From: Oscillospiraceae bacterium
Lineage (GTDB): Bacteria > Bacillota > Clostridia > Oscillospirales > Oscillospiraceae
Direction of reading: 5' to 3'
Assembly (NCBI GenBank): GCA_017409205.1
Contig: JAFQTF010000004.1
Location: forward strand, 1 to 58,846
Length of the DNA: 58,846 nt
Numbering within the stretch: the first letter of the stretch is position 1; each line of letters opens with the position of its first letter. Both the position numbers and the translations under genes were made by a program. This document shows positions 3,886 through 46,329 of this stretch, in pieces. A model generated the notes under the pieces. That model saw only the letters and a program-made list of their open reading frames with translations, was not told the DNA's origin and ran no database searches.

Positions 3886-5241
3886 ATGCAAACATTCCTG
3901 TTATTCGCAACCATCATTATCGCAGTTATTCTGATGGTCCTGGCAATCTCCAAGCTGAAGATGCATCCCTTCATTGTCATGCTTGTGATTGCAATGGTTG
4001 TCGGCCTGTTCTGGGGCATTGTGGACCCCGCCTCCGGACTGACACCCACCGAAGTTGTCAACCAGGTCAAAAATGGTTTCGGCAGCATCATGACCAGCAT
4101 CGGTATCGTCATTCTCTGCGGTACCATCATCGGCACCATTCTGGAAAAGACCGGTGCAGCTCTGACCATGGCAAATGCCATTCTGAAGCTGGTCGGTGAA
4201 AAGAACAGCGTTGTTGCCATGGGTGCCATGGGTTACGTCACCGGTATCCCCGTGTTCTGTGACTCCGGCTTCGTCGTTCTGTCTCCCATCAGCCGTGCTC
4301 TGGCACAGCAGTCCAATGTTTCCCTGGCCGTCATGGGCACTGCCCTGTCCGGCGGCCTGTATGCCACCCACTGCCTGGTTCCTCCCACCCCCGGTCCCAT
4401 CGCCATGGCCGGCACGCTGGAAGCTGACCTGGGCCTGACCATTCTGGTGGGTCTGCTGGTCTCCATTCCCGCTGTCATCGTGGCCATTCTTTACGCCAAG
4501 AAGGTGGCCAGCAAGATCAACATTCCCGCAAACTCCGAGTTTACGCTGGAAGAACTGCAGGCCAAGTACGGCAAGCTGCCCGGCACCTGGCAGAGCTTTG
4601 CTCCTCTGCTGCTGCCCATCATCCTGATCGGCATCGCCTCCATCGTTGACTTCCCCAGCAAGCCCCTGGGCACCGGCACCCTGTACCAGATCGTCATGTG
4701 CGTCGGTAATCCCGTAGTGGCTCTGCTGATCGGTGTATTCCTGGCCATGTCCCTGATCCCCGCAGAAGAAAAGAAAAATACCCTGAATTGGGTCACCCAG
4801 GGCGTTACCGATTCCGCCGGCATCCTGGCCATTACCTGCGCAGGCAGCTCCTTCGGTGCGATCCTGAAGTGCATGCCCATCGCCGGTTCCGTGGGTGCAC
4901 TGGTCAACTCCGGCCTGGGCGTTCTGATCCCCTTCATCATCGCCATGATCCTGAAGCTGGCTATGGGTGCTTCTACGGTTGCCATGATCACCACCGCCGG
5001 CATGATGGCTCCCATGATGGAAGTAATGGGCTTCACCTCTCCTCTGGCAAAGGTCATGGTCGTTCTGGCCATCGGTGCCGGTTCCATGGTCGCTTCCCAT
5101 GCCAACGACTCCTACTTCTGGGTGGTGTCCCAGTTCTCCGACATGAAGACCGACGAGGCTTACAAGTGCCAGACCGGCATGACCGCTGTGATGGGTCTGA
5201 CCATCATTGCGCTGCTGTTCGTCCTCTCTCTGTTCGTCTGA
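3886..5241 (+). CDS. GntP-family permease (gluconate/glycerate type)
   Basis: A 451-residue polytopic membrane protein with around a dozen hydrophobic helices. It matches the GntP family of proton-coupled sugar-acid symporters: GYVTGIPVFCDSGFVVL and THCLVPPTPGPIA are the typical conserved blocks, and length is normal. An AAGGAGGAAAG site precedes the ATG. The next gene encodes a glycerate 2-kinase, so D-glycerate or a related hydroxy-acid is a more likely substrate than gluconate, which is inference from context. A strong terminator separates the permease from the kinase, suggesting the kinase is made at a lower level or has its own promoter. Confidence 0.9.
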   Translation: MQTFLLFATIIIAVILMVLAISKLKMHPFIVMLVIAMVVGLFWGIVDPASGLTPTEVVNQVKNGFGSIMTSIGIVILCGTIIGTILEKTGAALTMANAILKLVGEKNSVVAMGAMGYVTGIPVFCDSGFVVLSPISRALAQQSNVSLAVMGTALSGGLYATHCLVPPTPGPIAMAGTLEADLGLTILVGLLVSIPAVIVAILYAKKVASKINIPANSEFTLEELQAKYGKLPGTWQSFAPLLLPIILIGIASIVDFPSKPLGTGTLYQIVMCVGNPVVALLIGVFLAMSLIPAEEKKNTLNWVTQGVTDSAGILAITCAGSSFGAILKCMPIAGSVGALVNSGLGVLIPFIIAMILKLAMGASTVAMITTAGMMAPMMEVMGFTSPLAKVMVVLAIGAGSMVASHANDSYFWVVSQFSDMKTDEAYKCQTGMTAVMGLTIIALLFVLSLFV

Positions 5242-6601: not shown

Positions 6602-6726
6602 TAAAAATATGTAATTGTCTGCATCCTGCGGATGGAGGGGCGGTCAATGACCGCCTGCAGGCGACTGGCAGTCGCCTTTACAGATTCCATTGCCGATTTT
6701 TCGTATTTTGCAGCAGTTTCTGCTTT

Positions 6727-7923
6727 TTACTTTGCAACCGGGGGAACTTCGATGACCAAGTCGCTGAGAGGGAAGGAGCAGCAGGGGTGGATGTAGCCGT
6801 AGAGCAGGTCGGCTTCCCGTCGTCCATCCACGGACTTAGGTGTGTAGATGTCGCCAGATACCAGCTTGGAATGACACCACCCACATTCACCACTGCGGCA
6901 ATGGGCAGGGGCGGCGATACCGGCGGCTTCCAGAGAGCGGAGCAGGGAAACATCGCTGGGAGCGGTGATGGTCTGCTCTGTTCCGGCAATACGGACTGTC
7001 ACCTTGAAGGCAGGGGCCACATTTTCGGGATAATCCGCTTCCTTGGCAGGGCCAAAGTATTCGCCAAAAAGTTCGTTGCGGATGAACTTCTTCCGCAAAC
7101 CCAGAGTCTCGATTTCCTTGTCAACGAACTTGCGCATGACCTGAGGACCGCAGACGAAGAGGGAAAATGCTCCTTTGGGGGCGTATTTTTTAATCAGCTC
7201 GGCAGTGATAAAGCCGTGTTCATGGCCCTCCCGTTCTTCGTGGCTGAAGATGTTGACCAGCTTGATTCGAGCGCAGTTGGCTTCCAGTTCCTTCAGATCC
7301 TTCTGGAAGATGGTGTCCTCCAGAGTGCGGCTGCCGTAGAGAATGGTCAGATCGCAGTCCTCATCGCCGTCTGCAATAGCCATGGCAAGAGCGCGGAAGG
7401 GGGTGATGGAACTGCCGCCCACCACAGCCACAACTGTGGTAGCATCCCGCAGAGGCTCATAGGTAAAGTTGCCCAGAGGCTCGGAGGCAGTCACCTCGGT
7501 ACCAATCTGCCAGTTGTCGTGGATGAACTGGGAGGCAAGACCGCCTTCTACCTTCTGAATGGTCAGCATATAGATGCCCTCCAGAGATTCCCGGGGAGAA
7601 GAAGCAAGGGAATAGGGGCGGGTCAGGGCCATGCTGCCGATCTTCAGTGTGATCGACAGGTACTGACCGGCGCTGAACCAGGCAAGAGCCTTGGTGCCCT
7701 TTTCTTCGTTGGGAGCAAGATAGTAACGCTTGGCATTACAGGCTTCCTCTTCAATTTTGACTACCTTCAGATACTGCACCTTGGGATGCAGGGCGTTGGC
7801 GATTTGGTTAGGAACATAGGAATTGGTGGCAGGCAGGGGCTTGGCAGGGGCAGCTTTAATTTTTGCCTGACGGGTGGGATTCATCTTGGTGAAATCCATG
7901 GGGTTCAGTTTCCACAGTGCCAT
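6727..7923 (-). CDS. FAD/NAD(P)-binding oxidoreductase with C-terminal 2Fe-2S ferredoxin domain
   Basis: About 398 residues. The order is an N-terminal lead, a ferredoxin-reductase-type FAD domain (RPYSLASSP), an NAD(P)-binding domain (VVGGSSITPFRAL, FVCGPQVM) and a plant-type 2Fe-2S domain with cysteines in CRSGECGWC near residues 342-350 and a further pair near 380 (HPCCSFP). This layout passes electrons from NAD(P)H through FAD to an iron-sulfur centre and on to a partner. The ATG at 7923 follows GGAGGT by seven bases and lies one base after the stop of the CrtI-like gene, so the two are translationally coupled. The partner is probably that flavoprotein. Confidence 0.85.
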   Translation of the reverse strand: MALWKLNPMDFTKMNPTRQAKIKAAPAKPLPATNSYVPNQIANALHPKVQYLKVVKIEEEACNAKRYYLAPNEEKGTKALAWFSAGQYLSITLKIGSMALTRPYSLASSPRESLEGIYMLTIQKVEGGLASQFIHDNWQIGTEVTASEPLGNFTYEPLRDATTVVAVVGGSSITPFRALAMAIADGDEDCDLTILYGSRTLEDTIFQKDLKELEANCARIKLVNIFSHEEREGHEHGFITAELIKKYAPKGAFSLFVCGPQVMRKFVDKEIETLGLRKKFIRNELFGEYFGPAKEADYPENVAPAFKVTVRIAGTEQTITAPSDVSLLRSLEAAGIAAPAHCRSGECGWCHSKLVSGDIYTPKSVDGRREADLLYGYIHPCCSFPLSDLVIEVPPVAK

Positions 7924-26129: not shown

Positions 26130-26158
26130 TTGACTTGAACACAGTGAAGTGGTAAACT
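26130..26158 (+). promoter_or_regulatory. Promoter of the T-box/arylacetate operon
   Basis: TTGACT (26130-26135), a 17-base spacer and TAAACT (26153-26158). Transcription would start near 26165, just before T-box Stem I. Confidence 0.65.
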
Positions 26159-26164
26159 AAGCAT

Positions 26165-26436
26165 TACATACCGAAAACGCGTTGATGAAAACCAGTACAC
26201 GCCCATTCGTTTCGACAGAGAACTGCCGGTCGGTGCAAGGCAGCGGGAACCGCGGCGTGGAATTCCTTTCGGAGCGGCTTTGCTGAGGTGGGAAAATCCC
26301 AAGGTAGGCGAAGACGGGTAGGGCCCGATACAGCCTGCGGATCTGTCAGGATCCCATGAGGCTCCCGCGCGGGAGTAAACTGAGGTGGTACCACAGGAAT
26401 TTCTTGTCCTCTGCTTATGCAAGCAGAGGATTTTTT
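26165..26436 (+). promoter_or_regulatory. T-box riboswitch leader, specifier UUC (tRNA-Phe)
   Basis: A full T-box leader. The conserved T-box AACTGAGGTGGTACCACAG lies at 26378-26396; its UGGU (26386-26389) would pair with the ACCA end of an uncharged tRNA. The terminator is CCTCTGCTT/AAGCAGAGG (26408-26429) with six T residues. In Stem I, CACGCC (26198-26203) pairs with GGCGTG (26254-26259). AGTA before the helix and GAA (26260-26262) after it form the loop-E motif of the specifier loop, so the next triplet, TTC at 26263-26265, is the specifier: Phe. The AGAGA motif (26217-26221) and apical GCC-GGC loop are also present. Uncharged tRNA-Phe should switch on the genes downstream. An out-of-register reading would give UGG (Trp), which fits the helix less well. 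Confidence 0.9.
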
Positions 26437-26471
26437 GTTTCCTATTTACAGAATAAAGGCAGGAGAGAAAA

Positions 26472-28109
26472 ATGGTTATTACAGATTTTTTGGAACGAAA
26501 TGCCCGGCTCTATGGACATGAAACTGCACTGGTGGAGATCAACCCGTCCGAGGAACGGGACAAGGCTGTCACCTGGTGGGATTTTAATCTGATCGAAAGC
26601 GCCAGCCAGGATGCACCTTACCGCCGGGAACTGAGCTGGAAGGATTTTGACCGCCGGGCAAACCGGTTTGCTAACCTTTTGCTGAGCCGTGGCCTGAAGA
26701 AGGGTACCAAGGTAGCGGTGCTTCTGATGAACTGTCTGGAATGGCTGCCTATTTACTTCGGTATTCTGAAGGCCGGCTGCCTGGCTGTGCCCATGAATTT
26801 CCGGTACAGCAGCGATGAAATCAAGTATTGCCTGGATTTGGCAGATGTGGAAGTGCTGGTGTTCGGCCCGGAGTTTGTCAGCCGTATGGATAGCATCGAG
26901 AAGGAGATCCCCGGCGTGCGGATGCTGTTTTATGTGGGCAGCGATGGCCCCGCCTATACCGAGGACTGCATCCGGCTCATGGGCTTCTGCTCCTCCAGCG
27001 CACCTCCCATTGCTCTGGATGAGTTGGATGATGCTGCCATTTATTTCTCGTCCGGTACCACCGGCTTCCCCAAGGCTATTTTGCACAATCACCGGGCGCT
27101 GGTACATTCCTGCCTGACGGAACAGAACCACCACTCCCAGAACCGGGAAGATGTGTTCCTCTGCATCCCGCCTCTGTATCACACCGGCGCCAAGATGCAC
27201 TGGTTCGGCTCTCTGCTCAGCGGCTCCAAGGCGGTGCTGCTGCGGGGTGTCAAGCCGGAGTGGATCCTCCGGGCGGTGACAGAGGAGAAATGCACCATCG
27301 TCTGGCTGCTGGTGCCCTGGGCCCAGGATCTGCTGGATGCCATTGATGACGGCCGGGTGGATCTGAGCAAGTTCCGGCTGGAGCAGTGGCGGCTGATGCA
27401 CGTTGGAGCCCAGCCGGTGCCGCCCAGCCTGATCCGCCGCTGGATGAAGGTTTTCCCGGATCATCAGTACGATACCAACTATGGCCTGTCCGAATCCATC
27501 GGCCCCGGCTGTGTCCATCTGGGTGTGGAAAATGTCCATAAGGTTGGTGCCATCGGCAAGCCCGGCTATGGCTGGCAGACGAAGATCGTGGACGATCACG
27601 ACATGGAAGTGGTTCCCGGTGACGTGGGCGAGCTGGTGGTTAAGGGCAATGGCGTTATGCAGTGCTACTATAAAAATCCCGAAGCTTCTGCGGAAGTGCT
27701 GAAGGACGGCTGGCTCTACACCGGTGATATGGCCCGTGAAGATGCAGATGGCTTTATCTATCTGGTTGACCGGAAGAAGGATGTGGTCATTTCCGGCGGT
27801 GAGAACCTGTATCCCGTTCAGATCGAAGATTTCCTGCGATCCTTTGATAAGATCAAGGATGTGGCAGTCATCGGCCTGCCGGATGCCCGTCTGGGTGAGA
27901 TCGCTGCAGCCATTATTGAGGTCAAGGAAGGGGAAGTCTGTACCGAGGCGGAGATCAACGATTTCTGCATGGAGCTGCCCCGCTATAAGCGCCCCCGGAA
28001 GATCTTCTTCGATACCGTTCCCCGGAATCCTACCGGTAAAATTGAAAAGCCTGCCCTGCGGGCAAAGTACTGCGGCGGGCGTCTGGTGGAAGCGCAGATC
28101 ACCGGTTAA
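26472..28109 (+). CDS. AMP-forming acyl-CoA synthetase (probable arylacetate/aryl acid ligase)
   Basis: A 545-residue member of the ANL superfamily, which makes an acyl-AMP and then an acyl-CoA from a carboxylic acid, ATP and CoA. Motifs in order are YFSSGTTGFPKA near residue 191, TNYGLSESIG, YTGDMARED, RKKDVVISGGENLYP near 434 and PTGKIEK with the catalytic lysine near 523. It is the first gene after the Phe T-box and is followed by a symporter, indolepyruvate oxidoreductase and a second ligase, so an aromatic acid is the likely substrate. AGGAGAG precedes the ATG. Confidence 0.85.
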   Translation: MVITDFLERNARLYGHETALVEINPSEERDKAVTWWDFNLIESASQDAPYRRELSWKDFDRRANRFANLLLSRGLKKGTKVAVLLMNCLEWLPIYFGILKAGCLAVPMNFRYSSDEIKYCLDLADVEVLVFGPEFVSRMDSIEKEIPGVRMLFYVGSDGPAYTEDCIRLMGFCSSSAPPIALDELDDAAIYFSSGTTGFPKAILHNHRALVHSCLTEQNHHSQNREDVFLCIPPLYHTGAKMHWFGSLLSGSKAVLLRGVKPEWILRAVTEEKCTIVWLLVPWAQDLLDAIDDGRVDLSKFRLEQWRLMHVGAQPVPPSLIRRWMKVFPDHQYDTNYGLSESIGPGCVHLGVENVHKVGAIGKPGYGWQTKIVDDHDMEVVPGDVGELVVKGNGVMQCYYKNPEASAEVLKDGWLYTGDMAREDADGFIYLVDRKKDVVISGGENLYPVQIEDFLRSFDKIKDVAVIGLPDARLGEIAAAIIEVKEGEVCTEAEINDFCMELPRYKRPRKIFFDTVPRNPTGKIEKPALRAKYCGGRLVEAQITG

Positions 28110-28150
28110 GGGCTTTCCCGTTAATTCAGAACAGAAAAGAGGCATCCTCT

Positions 28151-29719
28151 ATGGATATGGCAATTAAATTCGGCATGCTGGTTATATTTTTTGGAATTAT
28201 GATCGGAACCGGTTTTTACTGCCGGAAACATTCAACAGATATCGACGGCTTTGTGCTGGGCGGACGCAGTGTCGGCCCCTGGCTGACAGCCTTTGCCTAC
28301 GGCACTTCCTATTTTTCAGCGGTTGTGTTTGTTGGCTATGCCGGTCAGTTCGGCTGGAAATATGGCATCGCGGCAACGTGGGCGGGCATCGGCAATGCGC
28401 TCATCGGTTCGCTGATGGCCTGGGCAGTTCTGGGCAGACGCACCAGAGTAATGACCCAGCATCTGGACAGCGCCACCATGCCCCAGTTTTTTGAGGCCCG
28501 GTTCAACAGCAGGGCGCTGAAGCTTGCCTCTTCCGTCATTATTTTCATTTTCCTCATCCCTTACACGGCATCGCTTTACAATGGTCTGAGCCGTTTGTTC
28601 GGCATGGCCTTTGAGATCGACTATGCTGTTTGCGTCATCGTCATGAGTATTCTGACGGGCATCTATGTGATTGCCGGCGGCTATATGGCCACCGCCATCA
28701 ATGATTTTATTCAGGGCATGATTATGCTGGTGGGCATTGTGGCAGTGATCGCTGCAGTGCTGAAGGGCCAGGGCGGACTGATGGCAGCAATGGATGGTCT
28801 GGCAAGCGTCAGTGATCCGGCAGTTTCGGAAACACCCGGCGTTTTCAATTCCTTCCTGGGCCCCGATCCTGTGAATCTGCTGGGCGTGGTGCTCCTGACC
28901 AGCCTCGGTACCTGGGGCCTTCCTCAGATGGTGCAGAAGTTTTACGCCATCAAGAGCGAAAAGGCAATCAACAAGGGTATGATCATTTCTACGGTATTTG
29001 CCATGGTGGTGGCAGGCGGATGCTATTTTCTGGGCGGCTTCGGACGGCTGTTTTCCGACAGAGTTGATATTGCCGCGGATGGTTATGATGCCATTATCCC
29101 TGCCATGCTGTCGGATCTCTCTCCTTTCCTCATCGCGGTTGTGGTGATCCTGGTGCTGTCGGCGTCCATGTCCACCCTGTCTTCTCTGGTGCTGGCTTCC
29201 TCATCCACCCTGACTCTGGATTTTATTAAGGGAAGCATTGTGAAGGATCTGGAGGAAAAAAAGCAGCTGCTGATTATGCGCGTGCTGATCGCTGTGTTCA
29301 TCGCCATTTCTGCGGTGATCGCCATAGTGCAGTACAATTCCAATGTGACGTTCATCGCTCAGCTGATGGGTGTCAGCTGGGGCGCTCTGGCAGGTGCATT
29401 CCTGGCGCCCTTCCTGTATGGACTGTACTGGAAGAAAGCTACGACGGTTTCTGTCTGGTGCAGTTTCCTGTTCTCCACAGTGGTGATGCTGGCCAATATT
29501 GCAGCCAGACAGGCCTTCCCGCCCTTGCTGCAGTCTCCCATCAATGCCGGCGTGTTCTGCATGCTGGCAGGTCTGGTGATGGTTCCTGTGGTAAGCCTTT
29601 TCACCAGGCCGCCCCAAAAGGAATACATTGAACGTGTATTTTCCTGCTACGATAAAAAAGTGGTGGTATCTGTCACAGATGCCATTGGCGAACCCATTCA
29701 CAAGGAGGAAGAGCAATGA
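28151..29719 (+). CDS. Sodium:solute symporter (SSS family)
   Basis: A 522-residue membrane protein with about 13 helices of the SSS family. Typical blocks are VLGGRSVGPWLTAFAYGTSYFSAVVFVGYAGQFGW in outline, IAGGYMATAINDFIQGMIML (the SSS signature) and VLSASMSTLSSLVLASSSTL, where the serines and threonines help bind Na+. In this operon it may import phenylacetate, indoleacetate or another aryl acid; sister proteins carry proline, acetate, pantothenate and others. The stop overlaps the start of iorA by four bases, so production is coupled to the oxidoreductase. Confidence 0.87.
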   Translation: MDMAIKFGMLVIFFGIMIGTGFYCRKHSTDIDGFVLGGRSVGPWLTAFAYGTSYFSAVVFVGYAGQFGWKYGIAATWAGIGNALIGSLMAWAVLGRRTRVMTQHLDSATMPQFFEARFNSRALKLASSVIIFIFLIPYTASLYNGLSRLFGMAFEIDYAVCVIVMSILTGIYVIAGGYMATAINDFIQGMIMLVGIVAVIAAVLKGQGGLMAAMDGLASVSDPAVSETPGVFNSFLGPDPVNLLGVVLLTSLGTWGLPQMVQKFYAIKSEKAINKGMIISTVFAMVVAGGCYFLGGFGRLFSDRVDIAADGYDAIIPAMLSDLSPFLIAVVVILVLSASMSTLSSLVLASSSTLTLDFIKGSIVKDLEEKKQLLIMRVLIAVFIAISAVIAIVQYNSNVTFIAQLMGVSWGALAGAFLAPFLYGLYWKKATTVSVWCSFLFSTVVMLANIAARQAFPPLLQSPINAGVFCMLAGLVMVPVVSLFTRPPQKEYIERVFSCYDKKVVVSVTDAIGEPIHKEEEQ

Positions 29720-31446
29720 AACAACTGATGCTGGGCAACGAAGCGGTTGCCCGTGGATTATACGAAGCCGGATGTATGTTCGTCTCCAGCTATCCCGGTA
29801 CACCCAGTACCGAAATCACAGAGGCGATTGCAAAATACCCCGAGGTTTATGCCGAATGGGCACCCAACGAAAAGGTGGCTATGGAGGCGGCTTTCGGTGC
29901 ATCGCTGGCAGGCCGCCGTTCCTTCTGCGGTATGAAGCATGTGGGCCTGAACGTGGCGGCGGATCCGCTGTTCACCATTTCCTATACCGGTGTCAATGCC
30001 GGTATGGTCATCGGTGTTGCCGATGATGCCGGTATGCACTCCTCTCAGAACGAGCAGGATTCCCGGTACTATGCCAAGTCTGCCAAGATTCCCATGCTGG
30101 AACCTTCAGATTCCGCCGAGGCCATTGCCTATGCAAAGGCGGCCTATGATATTTCCGAAAAGTTCGATACCCCCGTTCTGCTGAAGATGTGCACCCGTGT
30201 TTCCCATTCCCAGAGTGTGGTGGAAACCGGTGAACGGGTGGAGCAGCTGAAGGAATATCAGAAGGACATTGCCAAGTATGTCATGATGCCCGGCAATGCC
30301 AAGAAGCGTCATCCCGTTGTGGAGGCCAGAACTGCGGCACTGGTGGATTTTGCGGAAAACACGGAACTCAATCGCGTTGAAGAGGGCTGGGACCACAAAA
30401 TGGGCATCATCACCTCATCCACTTCTTACCAGTATGTGAAGGAAGTGCTGGGTGACAGATATCCCGTTATGAAGCTGGGTATGATCTGGCCTATGCCTGA
30501 CGAAAAGATCAGGGTATTCGCCGCTTCTGTAGAAACACTGGTTATTGTGGAGGAACTGGAAGGTTTTATCGAATCCCACTGCCGGGATCTGGGGCTTGCC
30601 TGTGTGGGTAAATCCAATTTCTCCAACATTGGTGAACTGATGCCGCTGGATGTGGCAAAGCAGCTGAGCACGCCCTGGGAGACTGGTGTGAAGCTGGAAG
30701 AGAACATTCCGCCCCGGCCTCCTGTTATGTGCGCCGGCTGTCCCCATCGCGGCCTGTTCTATACATTAAAAAAGAATAAGCTGACAGTCCTGGGCGATAT
30801 CGGCTGTTATACTCTGGGCGCGGTGGCACCTCTGGGCGCAGTGGACAGCGTTATCTGCATGGGTGCTTCTGTTTCAGGCCTCCACGGCTTCTCCAAGAGC
30901 CAGAACGGCGCCATGGACAACAGGACCGTGGCGGTGATCGGTGATTCCACCTTCATACACTCCGGTATCACAGGCCTTGTGAATATGGCCTATAACGAGT
31001 CCAACGCGACGGTCATCATCGTGGACAACTCCATCACCGGTATGACCGGTCATCAGCAGAATCCCACTACCGGCTTCAACCTGAAGGGGGATCCCTGCAC
31101 CAAGATCGATCTGGAAACACTGTGCCGGGCTGTTGGCATCAGGCGTGTCCGTGTTGTGGATCCCTACGATCTGGCCCAGTGTGATGCGGCCATCAAGGAA
31201 GAACTCTCTGCCAATGAGCCCTCCGTCATCATTTCCCGCCGGCCCTGTGCATTGCTGAAGTACGTCAAGCATAAGGCCCCCCTGACTGTGGATACTGAGA
31301 AGTGTGTTGGCTGCAAGGCCTGCATGAAGATCGGCTGTCCTGCTGTCAGTATCGTAAACGGCAGAGCCAAGGTGGATGCCACCCAGTGTGTGGGTTGCGG
31401 TGTCTGCCAGCAGCTGTGCAAGTTCGGCGCTCTGAAGGAGGTCTAA
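29716..31446 (+). CDS. iorA: Indolepyruvate:ferredoxin oxidoreductase, alpha subunit
   Basis: A 576-residue thiamine diphosphate enzyme subunit. The N-terminal pyrimidine-binding domain has LLGNEAVARGLYEAG-like sequence and SYPGTPSTEI; the TPP-binding half shows CAGCPHRG near residue 338 and GDIGCYTLG near 360; the C-terminus carries two 4Fe-4S motifs, CVGCKACMKIGC and CVGCGVCQQLC (residues about 528-576). With IorB it interconverts aryl pyruvates and CoA with arylacetyl-CoA, CO2 and reduced ferredoxin. The reaction is reversible. Position behind a Phe-specific T-box suggests the carboxylating, amino-acid-forming direction. The start overlaps the symporter stop (ATGA). Confidence 0.95.
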   Translation: MKQLMLGNEAVARGLYEAGCMFVSSYPGTPSTEITEAIAKYPEVYAEWAPNEKVAMEAAFGASLAGRRSFCGMKHVGLNVAADPLFTISYTGVNAGMVIGVADDAGMHSSQNEQDSRYYAKSAKIPMLEPSDSAEAIAYAKAAYDISEKFDTPVLLKMCTRVSHSQSVVETGERVEQLKEYQKDIAKYVMMPGNAKKRHPVVEARTAALVDFAENTELNRVEEGWDHKMGIITSSTSYQYVKEVLGDRYPVMKLGMIWPMPDEKIRVFAASVETLVIVEELEGFIESHCRDLGLACVGKSNFSNIGELMPLDVAKQLSTPWETGVKLEENIPPRPPVMCAGCPHRGLFYTLKKNKLTVLGDIGCYTLGAVAPLGAVDSVICMGASVSGLHGFSKSQNGAMDNRTVAVIGDSTFIHSGITGLVNMAYNESNATVIIVDNSITGMTGHQQNPTTGFNLKGDPCTKIDLETLCRAVGIRRVRVVDPYDLAQCDAAIKEELSANEPSVIISRRPCALLKYVKHKAPLTVDTEKCVGCKACMKIGCPAVSIVNGRAKVDATQCVGCGVCQQLCKFGALKEV

Positions 31447-31448
31447 CC

Positions 31449-32021
31449 ATGGAAACAAAAAGCATTATGATCGTTGGTGTCGGCGGACAGGGAAGCCTGC
31501 TGGCCTCCAAGCTGCTGGGACGTCTCTTGCTGACCCGGGGCTATGATATCAAAGTTTCCGAGGTTCATGGTATGAGCCAGCGGGGCGGCAGTGTTGTCAC
31601 CTATGTCCGTTACGGCGACAAGGTCTATTCTCCTGTCATTGACAAGGGCCAGGCCGATTGTATCGTGTCCTTTGAACTGCTGGAGGCTGCCCGGTGGACG
31701 GAATACCTGAAGCCCGGTGGCAAGATCATCGTCAATACCCAGCAAATCAATCCGATGCCCGTCATCATCGGTGCGGCGGAATATCCCGGCGATCTGGTGG
31801 AAAAGATGCAGTCTACCGGCATCGATGTGGATGCCTTTGATGCACTGTCTTTGGCAGAGCAGGCAGGCTCTCCCAAGGCCGTGAACATCGTCCTGATGGG
31901 TCACTTGTCCCGGAATTTTGACTTTACCGAGGAAGAGTGGCTGACTGCTCTGGAGCAGAGCGTTGCCCCCAAATTCCTGGAAATGAACAAGAAAGCCTTC
32001 ACCCTGGGCAGAAATGCCTGA
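31449..32021 (+). CDS. iorB: Indolepyruvate:ferredoxin oxidoreductase, beta subunit
   Basis: A 190-residue partner of IorA with the gamma-type domain of 2-oxoacid oxidoreductases: SIMIVGVGGQGSLLASKLLG at the start, EVHGMSQRGGSVVTYVRYG and the final helix. Length equals that of the stand-alone IorB of archaea and clostridia. It begins two bases after the iorA stop with GGAGGTC overlapping the end of iorA, so the two are made together. The start is at 31449; an upstream extension would overlap iorA and is not supported. Confidence 0.93.
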   Translation: METKSIMIVGVGGQGSLLASKLLGRLLLTRGYDIKVSEVHGMSQRGGSVVTYVRYGDKVYSPVIDKGQADCIVSFELLEAARWTEYLKPGGKIIVNTQQINPMPVIIGAAEYPGDLVEKMQSTGIDVDAFDALSLAEQAGSPKAVNIVLMGHLSRNFDFTEEEWLTALEQSVAPKFLEMNKKAFTLGRNA

Positions 32022-32097
32022 TATCGTTTTTAATTGAAGAAGCCTTCGCTATGGACAGAAATGCCCGACGAGACTCCGTAAAAAAGGAGAAAAAACT

Positions 32098-33396
32098 ATG
32101 GCAAACTACTACCAGCCCGAAATCGAAACCATGCCCTATGAGCAGCTGCGTCAGCTGCAGAACGAACGACTGCTGAAGCAGGTGCAGCATGTTTGGGACA
32201 ACGTTCCCTACTACCGTCAGAAAATGGAAGAAAAGGGTGTGACCCCGGCGGATATTCAGTCTGTCGATGATCTGCACAAGCTGCCCTTCCTGACCAAGGC
32301 AGATTTGCGGGATGCCTACCCCTATGGTCTTATGGGTAAACCCAAGTCAGAATGTGTCCGGATCCATTCCACCTCCGGTACCACCGGCAAGCGGGTCATG
32401 GCCTTCTACACCCAGCACGACATCGACCTGTGGGAAGACTGCTGCGCCCGTGCCATTGTGGCCGCAGGCGGCACCAAGGAGGATGTGCTCCATGTGTCTT
32501 ATGGTTACGGCCTGTTTACCGGCGGTATGGGCCTGCATGGCGGCGGCCACAAGGTGGGCTGCCTGACCCTGCCCATGTCCTCCGGCAATACCGACCGGCA
32601 GCTCCAGTTCATGGAAGACCTGGGCAGCACCATCCTGTGCTGCACCCCCTCCTATGCCCAGTACCTGGCAGAATCCATTCATGAGCGGGGCCTACAGGAC
32701 AAGATCCATCTGAAGGCCGGTATCTTCGGTGCCGAAGCATGGAGCGAGGATATGCGCCGGGATATTGAGAACCGCCTGGGCATCAAAGCCTATGATATTT
32801 TTGGTCTGACGGAGCTTTCCGGTCCCGGTGTTTCCTTTGAATGTGAAGAGCAGACCGGCATGCACATCAATGAAGATCATTTCATCGCAGAGATCATTGA
32901 TCCGGATACCGGTGAGGTCCTGCCTCTGGGAAGCAAGGGTGAGCTGGTGTTCACTTCCCTGACCAAGGAAGCATTTCCCCTGCTGCGCTACCGCACCCGG
33001 GATATCTGCATGCTGAGCCGGGAAAAGTGCTCCTGCGGCAGAACCTTCGTGAAGATGGCCAAGCCCATGGGCCGCAGCGATGATATGCTGATCATCCGCG
33101 GAGTCAATGTCTTCCCCTCTCAGATCGAGACGGTGCTGCTCCAGAAGGGTTATCCCGCCAACTACCAGATCATTGTGGACCGTGTCAACAATACCGATAC
33201 ATTCGAGGTCATGGTGGAAATGAATCCCGAGCTGTTCTCCGACTCTCTGGCAAAGATCACCAGCGCAGAAAAGGAACTGGTTTCCGCTCTGAAGGCCATG
33301 CTGGGTATCTCTGCCAAGGTCAAGCTGGTGGCACCCAAGTCCATCACCCGCAGCGAAGGCAAGGCTGTCCGCGTTATCGACAAGCGCAAGATCTAA
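32098..33396 (+). CDS. paaK: Phenylacetate-CoA ligase family protein
   Basis: A 432-residue AMP-forming ligase of the PaaK family, converting phenylacetate or a similar arylacetate to its CoA ester. Motifs: RIHSTSGTTGKRVMAFYT (P-loop), DIFGLTELSGPG, YRTRDICMLSREKCSCGRT and SDDMLIIRGVNVFPSQIE, and an RSEGKAVRV lysine near the C-terminus. Length is normal. A paaK-type gene beside iorAB and an ACT protein is a recurring anaerobe arrangement. No aerobic paa ring-opening genes are present, so phenylacetyl-CoA is not destined for ring cleavage. AAGGAG precedes the ATG. It is the second ligase of the operon. Confidence 0.9.
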   Translation: MANYYQPEIETMPYEQLRQLQNERLLKQVQHVWDNVPYYRQKMEEKGVTPADIQSVDDLHKLPFLTKADLRDAYPYGLMGKPKSECVRIHSTSGTTGKRVMAFYTQHDIDLWEDCCARAIVAAGGTKEDVLHVSYGYGLFTGGMGLHGGGHKVGCLTLPMSSGNTDRQLQFMEDLGSTILCCTPSYAQYLAESIHERGLQDKIHLKAGIFGAEAWSEDMRRDIENRLGIKAYDIFGLTELSGPGVSFECEEQTGMHINEDHFIAEIIDPDTGEVLPLGSKGELVFTSLTKEAFPLLRYRTRDICMLSREKCSCGRTFVKMAKPMGRSDDMLIIRGVNVFPSQIETVLLQKGYPANYQIIVDRVNNTDTFEVMVEMNPELFSDSLAKITSAEKELVSALKAMLGISAKVKLVAPKSITRSEGKAVRVIDKRKI

Positions 33397-33408
33397 GGAG
33401 GCTACACT

Positions 33409-33840
33409 ATGAATATTCATCAGATTTCTGTGTTCCTGGAAAACCGTACCGGCCAGTTGGCGGAGATTACCAAATTGCTGGCAGAAAGCAATGTGGATAT
33501 CCGCGCCATTTCCATTGCAGAAACAGCAGACTATGGCCTGGCCCGTATGATCGTGGACGACTCCCATAAGGCGAGCACGATCCTGCTGCAGCACGGCGAT
33601 ATTCTTTCCATGACCCCTGTCTGGGCAGTGGAAGTACCTGACCGCCCCGGCGGACTGTCTGAGCTGCTGGCGGTTCTGGCAGATGCCCATGTGGACGTGG
33701 AATACATGTATTCGCTGTTTGCCCACAAGGATGACCATGCCTATATGGTCATGCGGATCAGTGACGAACCCAAATTCATCAGCACACTGGGCGACCGTCA
33801 GATCAAGATCATGACCAAGGCAGAACTTGACCTGAAATAA
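33409..33840 (+). CDS. Tandem ACT-domain protein
   Basis: A 143-residue protein made of two ACT domains: MNIHQISVFLENRTGQLAEITKLLAESNVDI, then WAVEVPDRPGGLSELLAVLADAHVDVEYMYS in outline. ACT domains bind amino acids and regulate enzymes allosterically. It lies 12 bases after paaK, with AAGGAGG, and is the last gene before a strong terminator. Stand-alone proteins like this often follow paaK in anaerobes. It probably senses Phe, Tyr or Trp and tunes the ligases or the oxidoreductase; that target is inferred. Confidence 0.87.
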   Translation: MNIHQISVFLENRTGQLAEITKLLAESNVDIRAISIAETADYGLARMIVDDSHKASTILLQHGDILSMTPVWAVEVPDRPGGLSELLAVLADAHVDVEYMYSLFAHKDDHAYMVMRISDEPKFISTLGDRQIKIMTKAELDLK

Positions 33841-33849
33841 ATCTTAAAA

Positions 33850-33877
33850 TGCCTGCCGTTTTGCGGCAGGCATTTTT
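33850..33877 (+). terminator. Terminator of the T-box operon
   Basis: TGCCTGCCG/CGGCAGGCA stem (33850-33872) with five T residues, nine bases after the ACT-protein stop. It marks the end of a 7.7-kb unit beginning at 26165. Confidence 0.88.
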
Positions 33878-34789: not shown

Positions 34790-36640
34790 ATGAAACATAT
34801 GAGACGGCTTCTGTGCCTGATCATGGCTGTCGTTATGCTGTCCACTGCAGTTATCGCAGCCAACGCATGTACCACCGTTGCTGTCGGTAAGGACGCTTCC
34901 GATACCGGCGCTGTTCTGGTGGCACACACCTGCGACGGCTGGTACGACCATCGTATCCAGATCGTTGAAGGCGGCAAGCACTCCGCCGATGAGGTCGTTG
35001 AGATCTACGGCGACCCCTGCACCCTGACCAAGAGCGATGTTACCCTGACCGGTACCATTCCTCAGGCAGAAGAGACCTACACTTACTTCAACATTGGCTA
35101 CCCCTTCATGAACGAGAAGGGCGTCATCATGAGTGAGTTCACCTGGTCCGGTGACTACAACAACTTCTACAACGGCACTGGTATGTTCTACATTGCAAAC
35201 CTGGAAATGCTGGGTCTGCAGCGTGCTGCCACCGCTAAGGAAGCTTGTGAAGTCATGGGTGCTCTGGCTGAAGAGTATGGCTACATCGACGGCGGCGAAT
35301 GCCTGCTGGTCGCTGACCAGAACGAAGTGTGGATCTTCGAGATCTGCGGCCCCGGCCCCCTGTGGACTCCCGAATCCGACGCTCCCGGCGCACACTGGGC
35401 TGCCCGTCGTGTTCCCGATGACAAGGTCTATGTCGGTGCTAACCGTTCCCGTCTGGGCGTCCTGGACTTCGACGATCCCGACACCCTGGTTTCCACCAAC
35501 ATCACTGCATGGCCCGAGCAGCTGGGTCTGTGGTCCGAAGGTGAAGAGTTCAACTACACCGACATCTTCAACCCCACTCCCTACGGCTACATGTTCTATG
35601 CATCCCGCCGCGAGTGGAGAGCTTTCTCTCTGATCGCTCCCTCTCAGGAATTCCCCGTTGTTGACCGCTGGAACCACTATGACTTCGCCATCACTCCCGA
35701 TGAGCCCGTCTCCAAGGAACTGATCATGCGCGACATCTACAGCGATCACCTGGAAGGCACCCCCTACTCCACCACTGAAGGCCCCGCAGCTGGTCCCTAC
35801 GGCAACCCCCATCGCCTGCAGGTCCAGAGCAGCCAGAAGCCCGAGACCGGCGAGGACTGGGAGCGTATCATTGCTCAGTTCCGCTGCACCTACTCCTTCG
35901 TTGCTGAACTGCGTCAGGATATGCCCGGCGAAATCGGCTCCGTCCTGTGGTTCGGTCAGGACTCCCCCGACACCACCGTTTATGTTCCCATCTACGCTGG
36001 TGTGACCGAAGTTCCCGTTGAATGGGCAACCGGCGACCGCAAGAACTTCGACCAGGATTGCGCATGGTGGGCATTCAACTTCGTCAACAACTACGCACAG
36101 CTGAACTGGAACGCAATGTATCCCGTTATCCGCGAGCGTAAGTTCGAGATCGAAGACGCTCTGTTCGCTGAGCAGGCTGAAGTCGACGCAAAGGCTCTGG
36201 AACTGTACAACGCCGGCAATGTTGACGGTGCAAGAAAGTACCTGACCGAGTACGTCTGCGAAACTCTGAACGAAGTCAATGATGCCTGGTGGGCATTTGC
36301 TTGGGAACTGGTTGGCCACTACTACGATGGTATCCGCATCGAAGAGGATGGCTCCTCCACCACTCTGGGCTACCCCACTGAATGGCTGATCGAGGTCGGC
36401 TACGGCCAGTCTTCCCTGGACGACATCGCTATGCTGAATGGCGAGACCGCTGAGGAAGCTCCCGCTGAGACCGAGGCTGCTACCGAGGCTCCCGCTGTTG
36501 AGACCGAGGCTGCTCCCGCTGAGACTGCCGCTCCCGAAGTCAACACCACTTCCAGCAACTCCTCCGCACTGCTGATCGGTGTCGTTGCTGTCGTTGCTGT
36601 CCTGGCAATCGCATTCTTCGTCCTGAAGAAGAAAAAGTAA
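34790..36640 (+). CDS. Membrane-anchored C69-family dipeptidase (PepD-like) 1
   Basis: A 616-residue secreted peptidase of family C69. A signal peptide (residues 1-26) ends ANA just before Cys27, the expected N-terminal nucleophile of CTTVAVGKDAS. Later family blocks are FTWSGDYNNFYNG, GECLLVADQNEVWIFEICGPG, ARRVPDDKVYVGANRSRLG and WWAFNFVNN. After the domain comes an Ala/Glu/Thr/Pro-rich linker of repeated EAPAETEA type, one membrane helix and KKKK at the end, fixing the enzyme to the outer face of the membrane. C69 enzymes release dipeptides or amino acids. Very strong codon bias suggests high expression. It shares its design with the gene at 44464. Confidence 0.9.
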   Translation: MKHMRRLLCLIMAVVMLSTAVIAANACTTVAVGKDASDTGAVLVAHTCDGWYDHRIQIVEGGKHSADEVVEIYGDPCTLTKSDVTLTGTIPQAEETYTYFNIGYPFMNEKGVIMSEFTWSGDYNNFYNGTGMFYIANLEMLGLQRAATAKEACEVMGALAEEYGYIDGGECLLVADQNEVWIFEICGPGPLWTPESDAPGAHWAARRVPDDKVYVGANRSRLGVLDFDDPDTLVSTNITAWPEQLGLWSEGEEFNYTDIFNPTPYGYMFYASRREWRAFSLIAPSQEFPVVDRWNHYDFAITPDEPVSKELIMRDIYSDHLEGTPYSTTEGPAAGPYGNPHRLQVQSSQKPETGEDWERIIAQFRCTYSFVAELRQDMPGEIGSVLWFGQDSPDTTVYVPIYAGVTEVPVEWATGDRKNFDQDCAWWAFNFVNNYAQLNWNAMYPVIRERKFEIEDALFAEQAEVDAKALELYNAGNVDGARKYLTEYVCETLNEVNDAWWAFAWELVGHYYDGIRIEEDGSSTTLGYPTEWLIEVGYGQSSLDDIAMLNGETAEEAPAETEAATEAPAVETEAAPAETAAPEVNTTSSNSSALLIGVVAVVAVLAIAFFVLKKKK

Positions 36641-44367: not shown

Positions 44368-44463
44368 TTTGTGCTTTCCGGAGTTTTAGCGGGCTCCGAG
44401 GCAGATAACATGGAGGCAGGAAACTGCTTCCGGAGGAACCAAAAGGAAATAAGGAGGAAAACT

Positions 44464-46329
44464 ATGAAACTGATGAGAAAACTGGTATGTCTGGTTCTGG
44501 CCATCGTGATGCTGTCTACCGCAGCTATCTCCGCCAGCGCATGTACCACCATCGCAGTTGGTAAGGATGCTTCCGCAGACGGCTCCACCATGGTTGCCCA
44601 CTCCGTTGACGGCTGGTACGACGAGCGTATCGAGATCGTTGAAGGCGGCACTCATGCTGAAGGCGAAATGGTAGACATCTACCGTGACCCCTGCCAGGAC
44701 GGCTATCGTGCTGTTGAACTGGTGGGTCAGATTCCCCAGGTCGCTGAGACCTACACCTATTTCGACACCGGTTACCCCTTCATGAATGAGAAGGGCGTTA
44801 CCATCGGCGAGCACACCTGGAGCGGTGACTACAACGCCTTCTACAATGGCGAAAACGCTCTGTTCATGATTGCAAACCTGCAGGCTCTGGGTCTGCAGCG
44901 CGCTTCCACCGCTAAGGAATGCGTCGAGATCATGGGTGCTCTGGCTGAAGAGTGGGGCTATGCCGACGGCGGCGAGACCCTGCTGGTTGCTGACAAGAAC
45001 GAAATCTGGATCTTCGAGATCTCCGGCCCCGGCATGCTGTGGACCAAGGATTCCGGCAAGCCCGGCGCCCACTGGGCAGCCCGTCGCGTGCCTGATGATG
45101 AGATCCACTCCGGCGCAAACCGTTCCATCCTGCGTGAGATCGACTTCAACGATCCCGAAAACTACATGTGGTCCACCGATATCACCGAGTACCCCAAGGA
45201 ACTGGGTTACTGGACCGAAGGTGAGCCCTTCAACTACTCCATCATCTTCGACACCGTCGAGGGCAACGAAGCTTACACCTGCTCCGGCCGTGTCTGGCGT
45301 GTTTACGACCTGCTGGCCCATTCTCAGGGCTTTGAGATCTGCAACGAAGAGCAGGCTCTGACTCAGCTGCCCTTCTCCGTCAAGCCCGATGAGAAGGTCA
45401 CTCTGCAGGACATCTTCGCTGTTTACTATGACCACTACGAAGGCACTCCCTTCGACATGACCGTTGGTCTGGCTGCCGGCCCCTGGGGCAACCCTGTCCG
45501 CTACAGATCCAATGCTGCCAATGTTCCCGAGGATGTGAAGAAGTTTAACTGGGAGCGTTCCATCGCTATCTATCGTTGCTCCTACTCCTTCGTTTCCCAG
45601 ATGCGTCAGGATATGCCCGAGGAAATCGGCACCCTGCTGTGGTACGGCGCTGACTCCCCCGACACCACTGTCCATGTTCCCATCTACGCCGGTACCACCG
45701 AGGTTCCCGAGCAGTGGAGCCAGAGCAACCGTTGGGAATTCGACCGCAACAGCGCATGGTGGGCATTCAACTTCGTCAACAACTGGGCTACCACCGGTTG
45801 GAACGTCATCTATCCCGAAATCGCTGCAAAGCGTGACGAGATGGAAGCCAAGTTCATCTCCGAGATCCCCGAAGTCGACGCTGAGGCTCTGAAGCTGTAT
45901 GAGGCCGGTAACATCGACGGCGCAAAGAAGGTCCTGACTGAGTACGTCAATGAGACCATGAACTACACCTACAACGAGTGGTGGAGCTTCGCTGATTACC
46001 TGATCGGCCGCTTCAACGATGGTATGACTGTCGATGCTGAGAACCGCTCCACTTCCGGCTTCCCCTACTCCATGGAATACCTGGATGCTGTTGACTACGG
46101 CCACAGCCATCTGAACCAGTGGCTGGCTATCCCCGGCAATGCTCCCGCTGAGGAACCCGCTGAGACCGAGGCTCCCGCTACTGAGGCTCCTGAGACCGAA
46201 GCTCCCGCTACCGAGGCTCCCGTTGCTGAGGCTCCCGCTTCCAACAGCACCGGTTCCCTGATCCTGGGTATCGTCATCGGCGCAGCCGCAGCTGCTATCG
46301 TTGCCTTCCTGCTGAAGAAGAAGAAGTAA
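44464..46329 (+). CDS. Membrane-anchored C69-family dipeptidase (PepD-like) 2
   Basis: A 621-residue paralogue of the protein at 34790, with the same plan: signal peptide ending ASA before Cys27 (CTTIAVGKDAS), the C69 catalytic domain (HTWSGDYNAFYNG, GETLLVADKNEIWIFEISGPG, GANRSILREIDF), an EAPATEAP-type linker, one membrane helix and a KKKK end. It differs in the segments lining the predicted pocket, so substrate preference may differ. AAGGAGGAAAACT precedes the ATG at 44464; upstream in-frame codons are not supported. It is the second gene behind the promoter at 42931 and is terminated at 46369. Codon bias is strong. Confidence 0.9.
   Translation: MKLMRKLVCLVLAIVMLSTAAISASACTTIAVGKDASADGSTMVAHSVDGWYDERIEIVEGGTHAEGEMVDIYRDPCQDGYRAVELVGQIPQVAETYTYFDTGYPFMNEKGVTIGEHTWSGDYNAFYNGENALFMIANLQALGLQRASTAKECVEIMGALAEEWGYADGGETLLVADKNEIWIFEISGPGMLWTKDSGKPGAHWAARRVPDDEIHSGANRSILREIDFNDPENYMWSTDITEYPKELGYWTEGEPFNYSIIFDTVEGNEAYTCSGRVWRVYDLLAHSQGFEICNEEQALTQLPFSVKPDEKVTLQDIFAVYYDHYEGTPFDMTVGLAAGPWGNPVRYRSNAANVPEDVKKFNWERSIAIYRCSYSFVSQMRQDMPEEIGTLLWYGADSPDTTVHVPIYAGTTEVPEQWSQSNRWEFDRNSAWWAFNFVNNWATTGWNVIYPEIAAKRDEMEAKFISEIPEVDAEALKLYEAGNIDGAKKVLTEYVNETMNYTYNEWWSFADYLIGRFNDGMTVDAENRSTSGFPYSMEYLDAVDYGHSHLNQWLAIPGNAPAEEPAETEAPATEAPETEAPATEAPVAEAPASNSTGSLILGIVIGAAAAAIVAFLLKKKK

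Follow-up and report, generated by a model that had tools for sequence, protein, structure and literature searches.

A T-box-led iorAB operon of gut Clostridia proposed to rebuild phenylalanine or tyrosine from arylacetates, and its branched-chain twin

Introduction

The window analysed here, a stretch of 58,846 nucleotides from an Oscillospiraceae bacterium (contig JAFQTF010000004.1), carries at positions 26130 to 33877 an operon of six genes, among them iorA, iorB and a paaK-like gene, behind a T-box leader RNA. In gut genomes iorAB and paaK are usually taken as makers of phenylacetate; a T-box, for its part, switches on the genes behind it when the amino acid that it monitors runs short. 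Which way, then, does this operon run? An earlier interpretation of the same DNA, the sequence-only reading, had proposed that it salvages arylacetates for aromatic amino acids. Our comparative analysis makes it highly probable that this is a phenylalanine (Phe)-responsive T-box operon for arylacetate salvage, which would rebuild Phe, or tyrosine (Tyr), rather than degrade it. Amino acids are given below by their three-letter codes, and statements about papers cited by PMC number refer to excerpts of them, except where a main text is named.

The leader and its specifier codon

Four elements of the leader were located:

26173..26414, plus strand: T-box leader RNA (RF00230), 113.1 bits against a gathering score of 93, E 3e-24
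26263..26265, plus strand: specifier codon UUC (Phe), at a place anchored from the 3' side as specifier + 1 nt + 4 nt + NGAGC
26383..26397, plus strand: T-box sequence, in which UGGU at 26386-26389 can pair with the NCCA end of an A73 tRNA
26406..26431, plus strand: intrinsic terminator of the leader, a stem and then a T run

The alignment covers model positions 1-219 of RF00230 and is the sole match in the window to reach the gathering score. The UGGU bulge fits both tRNA-Phe and tRNA-Tyr, which we take to have A73. Folding predicts that terminator and antiterminator are mutually exclusive, the terminator forming in the full 3' part and the GAGG/CCUC antiterminator pairing once this part is shortened; the leader as a whole folds weakly better than its shuffles (z -1.82), and terminator-like sites in the window number 13, compared with 7.9 in shuffled sequence.

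The rule that places the specifier also gives the expected amino acid in other T-boxes of the same genome (thrS, metG, MetN, ileS, TrpX) and in tyrS of relatives. This genome has ten T-boxes, most of which gave more than one specifier candidate by script, the candidate at the usual place being chosen. The rule yields AUG for a MetN-like gene, UUC for the ior operon, CUG for a leuA-like gene, AUC for ileS, ACC for two thrS genes, AUG for metG, UGG for a TrpX-like gene and, for a pair of acyl-CoA ligases, AUC and GUC; several of these genes score below cut-off or are cut by the fetched stretch, while the thrS of locus L007 and metG are above cut-off. Among relatives, the tyrS of L074, above cut-off, has UAC at the specifier place, and L067 has a like arrangement, with UAC before a tyrS named from similarity of its printed sequence. 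In both loci the tyrS with its own UAC T-box (L067:11249-11350 and L074:11245-11346) lies directly downstream of an ior operon that has no T-box.

Leaders among relatives and their Phe/Tyr specifiers

From a search with IorA the best 80 of 340 named loci were kept, many of them in metagenome-assembled genomes from the gut of ruminants and other animals; the 38 in which a leader was found (below) are, by their titles, all from metagenome-assembled genomes. A model of stem I was built from 20 leaders, which match it by construction. Across these 20, pairing is kept in 90.9% of cells, compared with 79.2% in shuffles, and double-sided changes affect 19 of 23 pairs (10.8 in shuffles) and 79 cells (25.7 in shuffles). 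Applied to all 80 named loci, the model found 39 leaders in 38 loci plus the two tyrS leaders, and none beyond these; scanning 21 of the leaderless named loci at the gathering score gave no T-box on the operon.

The sequence-only reading had proposed looking in other genomes for T-boxes upstream of iorAB/paaK, and they are indeed there. Counts over loci with intact upstream DNA leave out 9 of the 80 named and 4 of the 75 class-wide loci. The leader is present in 38 of 71 named intact loci, namely 37 of 60 with acs, the gene of an acyl-CoA ligase, in the operon and 1 of 11 without it (L016 and L017, whose IorA rows are identical, are both counted). Across the class, IorA reaches E <= 1e-120 in at least 170 of the 245 Clostridia genomes. 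The 75 loci fetched from them are a non-random sample, the first 55 giving 3 leaders and five of the next 20 being picked as kin of carriers, and the leader is found in 10 of the 71 intact ones, in family groups f48 (4), f32 (2), f22 (2), f23 and f34. All ten belong to the 17 operons of the acs type, that is (sss-)acs-iorAB, sss being the symporter gene, against 0 of 54 others. Ten loci, L093-L102, had no set of their own in the analysis.

Specifiers were read in 50 leaders: that of the window, the 39 named ones and the ten distant class-wide ones. Every one is either UUC (Phe, 27) or UAC (Tyr, 23), the ten distant leaders all having UAC, and a Trp codon occurs in 0 of 50. Read in the alternative frame -1, the specifier would be AUU/AUA (Ile) in 47 leaders but UUA (Leu) in 3, and the remaining frames give mixed sets (Glu/Gln/Asn, Asn/Ile, Ser/Thr, Pro/His); these frames were rejected. 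The restriction to UUC and UAC therefore ties the operon to the supply of Phe or Tyr, and since Tyr specifiers are nearly as common as those for Phe, phenylacetate and 4-hydroxyphenylacetate are equally likely substrates. T-box control with Phe specificity in the window is supported by the Rfam match, by UUC at the rule-checked place and by the comparative leaders. The earlier proposal on the substrate stands in part: aromatic acids of the Phe/Tyr type are backed by the specifiers, and indoleacetate, which it had also named, is without leader support.

Specificity has changed repeatedly. Parsimony on a FastTree phylogeny of IorA requires at least 7 switches between Phe and Tyr, in a tree where 47 of 155 inner branches have support below 80 and gene transfer may have played a part. 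This count leaves aside L069 (Candidatus Flavonifractor intestinipullorum), which has two leaders in tandem, with UAC before acs (4632-4734) and UUC before iorA (6643-6745).

The operon behind the leader

The remaining features of the operon are as follows:

26130..26158, plus strand: sigma-70-like promoter TTGACT-17-TAAACT with TG before the -10, a consensus match only (9/12)
26472..28109, plus strand: acs, AMP-binding acyl-CoA ligase, proposed arylacetate-CoA ligase (PF00501 and PF13193)
28151..29719, plus strand: sodium:solute symporter (SSS) family transporter, proposed for arylacetate uptake (PF00474)
29716..31446, plus strand: iorA, indolepyruvate ferredoxin oxidoreductase (IOR) alpha subunit (TIGR03336, IOR_alpha, 695.6 against a cut-off of 650.9)
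31449..32021, plus strand: iorB, beta subunit (NF005325, 279.3 against a cut-off of 230)
32098..33396, plus strand: PaaK-like phenylacetate-CoA ligase (TIGR02155, E 4.9e-154)
33409..33840, plus strand: tandem ACT protein, possible amino-acid sensor (PF19571, ACT_8)
33846..33876, plus strand: end-of-operon hairpin with a T run (listed by the scan on the minus strand; its plus-strand end runs into TTTTT)

Together with the T-box and the leader terminator, the promoter-like site, the six same-strand open reading frames and the end hairpin make up one operon, whose widest intergenic gap is 76 nt, between iorB and the PaaK-like gene. The layout of one promoter, a T-box leader, six close genes and one terminator was confirmed with Rfam, open reading frames, Pfam/NCBIfam and hairpin scans. 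It is important to note that the promoter call rests on its position, because the scan found 7 promoter-like sites in the window, close to the 5.8 of shuffled sequence. Both IOR subunits exceed curated cut-offs for the IorAB class, and TIGR03334 is not reached (181.3 against 205.8). The acs ligase and the symporter are below every NCBIfam cut-off shown and were assigned by Pfam; the solved chains nearest to the acs product are fatty-acyl-CoA and feruloyl-CoA synthetases, and the best family match of the symporter is PutP. The last ligase is called "PaaK-like" because it does not pass the equivalog cut-off of TIGR02155 (512.9 against 646.3 bits). At family level, the operon brings together in one unit IorAB and an acid-activating ligase, as a reductive aryl-acid route requires. 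Elsewhere in the window there are two C69-family dipeptidase-like genes (34790-36640 and 44371-46329), both under the NCBIfam cut-off.

A branched-chain twin in the same genome

The genome that carries the ior operon has a second system of this kind. Contig C26 (L183:3207-11756, minus strand) carries two further T-boxes on acyl-CoA ligases, in the order AUC (Ile) T-box, ligase, GUC (Val) T-box, second ligase, CbiA-like gene and VOR genes, the latter being VorB (547.9 against a cut-off of 399), a VorA-like beta subunit and a POR-type gamma subunit. VOR, as its family name says, acts on the 2-oxoacid of Val. Each ligase combines an N-terminal helix-turn-helix and a cupin with the AMP-binding domain, and MbcS is the best family for both, below its cut-off (434.5 and 421.8 against 850). 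The first of them has its own T-box, like acs in L069. This order is kept, with AUC and GUC, in all four relatives fetched (L184-L187), so that AUC is read in 5 of 5 and GUC in 5 of 5 twin leaders, and three of these relatives also gave a match for the POR-type gamma subunit. In the window's genome the twin adjoins a leuA-like gene, identified by family search and preceded by a CUG (Leu) T-box; a CUG leader likewise occurs there in the four relatives. Just downstream of the leuA-like gene, at L183:13637-16147, lies another AMP-binding ligase, joined in one protein to a TIM barrel like that of xylose isomerase (PF01261).

The combination of T-box, acid-CoA ligase and 2-oxoacid:ferredoxin oxidoreductase is therefore repeated for Ile and Val, and this is the strongest support for a biosynthetic ior operon.

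Direction of the pathway and the part under control

The usual label for these genes is degradative: IorAB and the ligases would oxidise Phe or Tyr to arylacetates and gain reduced ferredoxin. IOR is reversible, it has been reported to convert Phe to phenylacetate in Bacteroides thetaiotaomicron (cited in PMC13285125), and in Clostridioides difficile the CD2382-iorAB-butK unit, listed under SigL promoters, combines IorAB with an aminotransferase and a kinase (PMC7438776). However, degrading Phe or Tyr is the wrong sense for this operon, because the T-box turns it on at Phe/Tyr shortage, which degradation would deepen. Moreover, both ligases of the operon belong to the AMP-binding family, family searches found no kinase, phosphotransferase, aminotransferase or ADP-forming ligase among the six operon genes, and the twin joins Ile and Val T-boxes to ligases and VOR in the same way. 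For these reasons we regard degradation as improbable; the anabolic direction put forward by the sequence-only reading gains comparative backing from the leaders, the Phe/Tyr specifiers and the twin, and would be the sense in which the operon works.

A second alternative, which we rate slightly lower still, is that the true target of the T-box is uptake, the SSS protein importing Phe or Tyr while the enzymes ride along. Transporters are often under T-box control (PMC2494555), and PutP is the best family match of the symporter. Against this, the leader stands on symporter-free acs-iorAB operons in 14 named intact loci and in five class-wide ones (L147, L163, L165, L166 and L174; a sixth, L170, was filed as acs-iorA by the gap rule, but its leader precedes sss). 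In L056 the leader is directly before iorA, and the second leader of L069 likewise serves iorA. The part common to leader-controlled operons is thus iorAB, nearly always with acs.

That the main product is Trp, made from indoleacetate, has very little probability. The family name of IorA and the listing of a Geobacter iorAB-paaK operon under tryptophan (PMC2700814) point that way, as does the distribution of trpA, which scores over cut-off in 2 of 38 T-box genomes tested, leaving 36 without it, compared with 34 of 53 others (Fisher p 3.9e-9, a value confounded by kinship; among independent pairs the trend is followed by 2.3 and reversed by 0, with no difference in 4.7, which leaves significance out of reach). 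None of the 50 leaders has a Trp codon, however, and the window's genome has a separate UGG T-box before its TrpX-like gene. T-box carriers may either import Trp, as that UGG T-box would allow, or in some cases also rebuild it, and the specifiers do not favour rebuilding. Equally slight is the chance that arylacetyl-CoA is made for another product, coupled to aromatic supply for some obscure reason: the two CoA ligases and an ACT protein without known partner would suit it, but IorAB would have no use after the activation of arylacetate, and family searches of the six genes gave neither an acyltransferase nor a synthase.

Aromatic pathways of the hosts

The sequence-only reading had asked whether the host lacks a shikimate/prephenate route. 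It does not: the assembly (1.76 Mb, 76.6% complete) has chorismate synthase (aroC), adjoined by chorismate mutase-prephenate dehydratase (pheA). The operon is therefore an alternative to de novo synthesis, and this host does not depend on the operon. Prephenate dehydratase (PDT), of the Phe branch, is present in 35 of 44 T-box-bearing genomes tested and absent in 9 of 44, against 5 of 61 others. In a set of 44 relatives (37 T-box carriers and 7 without), the dehydratase was found in 37, prephenate dehydrogenase (PDH) in 39, and chorismate synthase in 19 of the 22 checked.

A few lineages differ. Neither PDT nor PDH was matched in G035 (locus L077) and G036 (L088), both with UAC leaders, where aroF, aroB, aroA, aroC and aroEK lie side by side; a loss of pheA/tyrA is likely here, because the two genomes agree and the aro cluster is intact. 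It is important to consider that G010, G017 and G021, without PDT, PDH and aroC, are perhaps merely incomplete assemblies. G025 (UUC) and G043 (no T-box) are without PDT and have PDH and aroC. In group f48, G205, G247 and G268 are without the dehydratase and keep the dehydrogenase, while G105 and G158 have both.

Several observations weigh against a salvage operon for Phe or Tyr. The host keeps pheA and aroC, and in G205, G247 and G268 a Tyr T-box is paired with loss of the dehydratase, which belongs to the Phe branch, and not of the dehydrogenase. No leader is present in 33 of the 71 named intact loci. The acs ligase, the symporter and the PaaK-like protein are all under curated cut-offs, so that the substrates of ligases and symporter are not fixed by family. 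To these must be added the Bacteroides conversion of Phe to phenylacetate and the tryptophan label of the Geobacter operon, both mentioned above.

Operons without a T-box

Two close relatives of the window, L020 and L033, have the operon without a leader upstream of acs, an apparent recent loss. In T-box-less operons of the acs type, the palindrome CTTTAAAG is frequent ahead of the first gene: 13 of 30 intact loci have it, where shuffled letters would give 0.26; elsewhere it is found in 1 of 48 loci with a T-box and 2 of 67 loci without acs. Twelve of the 13 sites sit 59 to 105 bases upstream, and loci with the palindrome include L039, L042, L043, L045-L048, L050, L053, L084, L085 and L090. 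This hints at a repressor replacing the RNA switch. In addition, three genomes (G035, G036 and G023) have a second, distant IorA, 38-41% identical, together with IorB and a PaaK-like gene (L123, L124 and L125); no stem I match was found at these three loci, and this second enzyme possibly has another direction or substrate.

Proposed mechanism and its reach

We infer the tRNA response, the substrates, the direction and the roles of symporter and ACT protein as follows. When tRNA-Phe is uncharged, its anticodon would pair with UUC and its NCCA end would stabilise the antiterminator, so that the operon is read. The symporter would import phenylacetate, and probably 4-hydroxyphenylacetate too; the AMP-forming ligases would make the aryl-CoA; and IorAB would carboxylate the aryl-CoA, using CO2 and reduced ferredoxin, to give the arylpyruvate, which an aminotransferase encoded elsewhere would convert to Phe (or Tyr). 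A possible sensor of this product is the ACT protein.

A wider interpretation, which we favour with some reserve, is that gut Clostridia have a general tRNA-sensing system that rebuilds amino acids by carboxylation, both aromatic and branched-chain. In such a system, Phe and Tyr would come from arylacetates through UUC/UAC T-boxes and acs-iorAB, and Ile and Val from 2-methylbutyrate and isobutyrate through AUC/GUC T-boxes, the two MbcS-like ligases and VOR. The aromatic branch would have flipped repeatedly between Phe and Tyr, with Tyr driving the first ligase and Phe driving iorAB in L069, and would replace lost pheA/tyrA in a few lineages. If true, the general system would be the genetic basis of old rumen observations, and old rumen physiology would become testable gene by gene. 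The regulation described here says the opposite of the phenylacetate-making role usually given to iorAB/paaK in gut genomes: carriers would be expected to be consumers of arylacetates whenever Phe or Tyr runs short. A T-box before a 2-oxoacid:ferredoxin oxidoreductase operon would then offer a sequence-based rule for telling such consumers from producers.

Comparison with known systems

The chemistry, T-boxes as such and the suggestion of a biosynthetic role for ior genes are already known. Their union appears to be new, as do the flips between Phe and Tyr, the two leaders in tandem and the branched-chain twin, with the limit that no literature search was aimed at T-boxes of VOR or MbcS. A T-box on an iorAB/phenylacetate operon was not found in the literature searched, and older T-box surveys may contain such an operon. 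PMC2494555 describes Firmicutes aromatic T-box regulons with Phe and Tyr specifiers and infers a Tyr-to-Phe change for a transporter of the Bacillus cereus group; its main text nowhere uses the terms indolepyruvate, phenylacetate, oxidoreductase or acyl-CoA.

In Archaea, Methanococcus maripaludis draws on aryl acids for its aromatic amino acids (PMC4162585, PMC3462420), and there, as with the reverse IOR of Methanobacterium thermoautotrophicum, IorAB is likewise the proposed carboxylase acting on activated aryl acids. The excerpts on the archaeal route make no mention of a T-box, whereas the operon described here places a symporter, an ACT protein and a pair of ligases behind a tRNA-sensing leader. 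For rumen anaerobes, Phe synthesis from phenylacetic acid is the title of a work (Allison 1965) in the reference list of PMC7356843, which also describes the carboxylation of isovalerate to Leu. The overall chemistry is the same, in gut anaerobes, and the ior operon and its twin are gene candidates for it. The C. difficile CD2382-iorAB-butK unit shares the IorAB core, its aminotransferase and kinase being absent from the operon described here, and the tyrosine-fermenting cluster of Clostridium scatologenes (PMC13285125) is also unlike this operon, which has no aminotransferase, phosphotransferase or kinase. The Geobacter iorAB-paaK operon is tabulated among biosynthetic operons that have a conserved 5' sequence (PMC2700814), so that it shares with ours a biosynthetic label and a conserved leader region; in the excerpts the name T-box is given there for leuA only. 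A further parallel is in Bacteroides, where a ligase adjoining IOR was assayed as an arylacetate-CoA ligase and a biosynthetic role was suggested (PMC13285125). The pairing of IOR with an AMP-forming ligase and the suggested role are the same, and the argument in that excerpt is the type of ligase, whereas here the regulatory RNA gives independent evidence, and does so in Clostridia.

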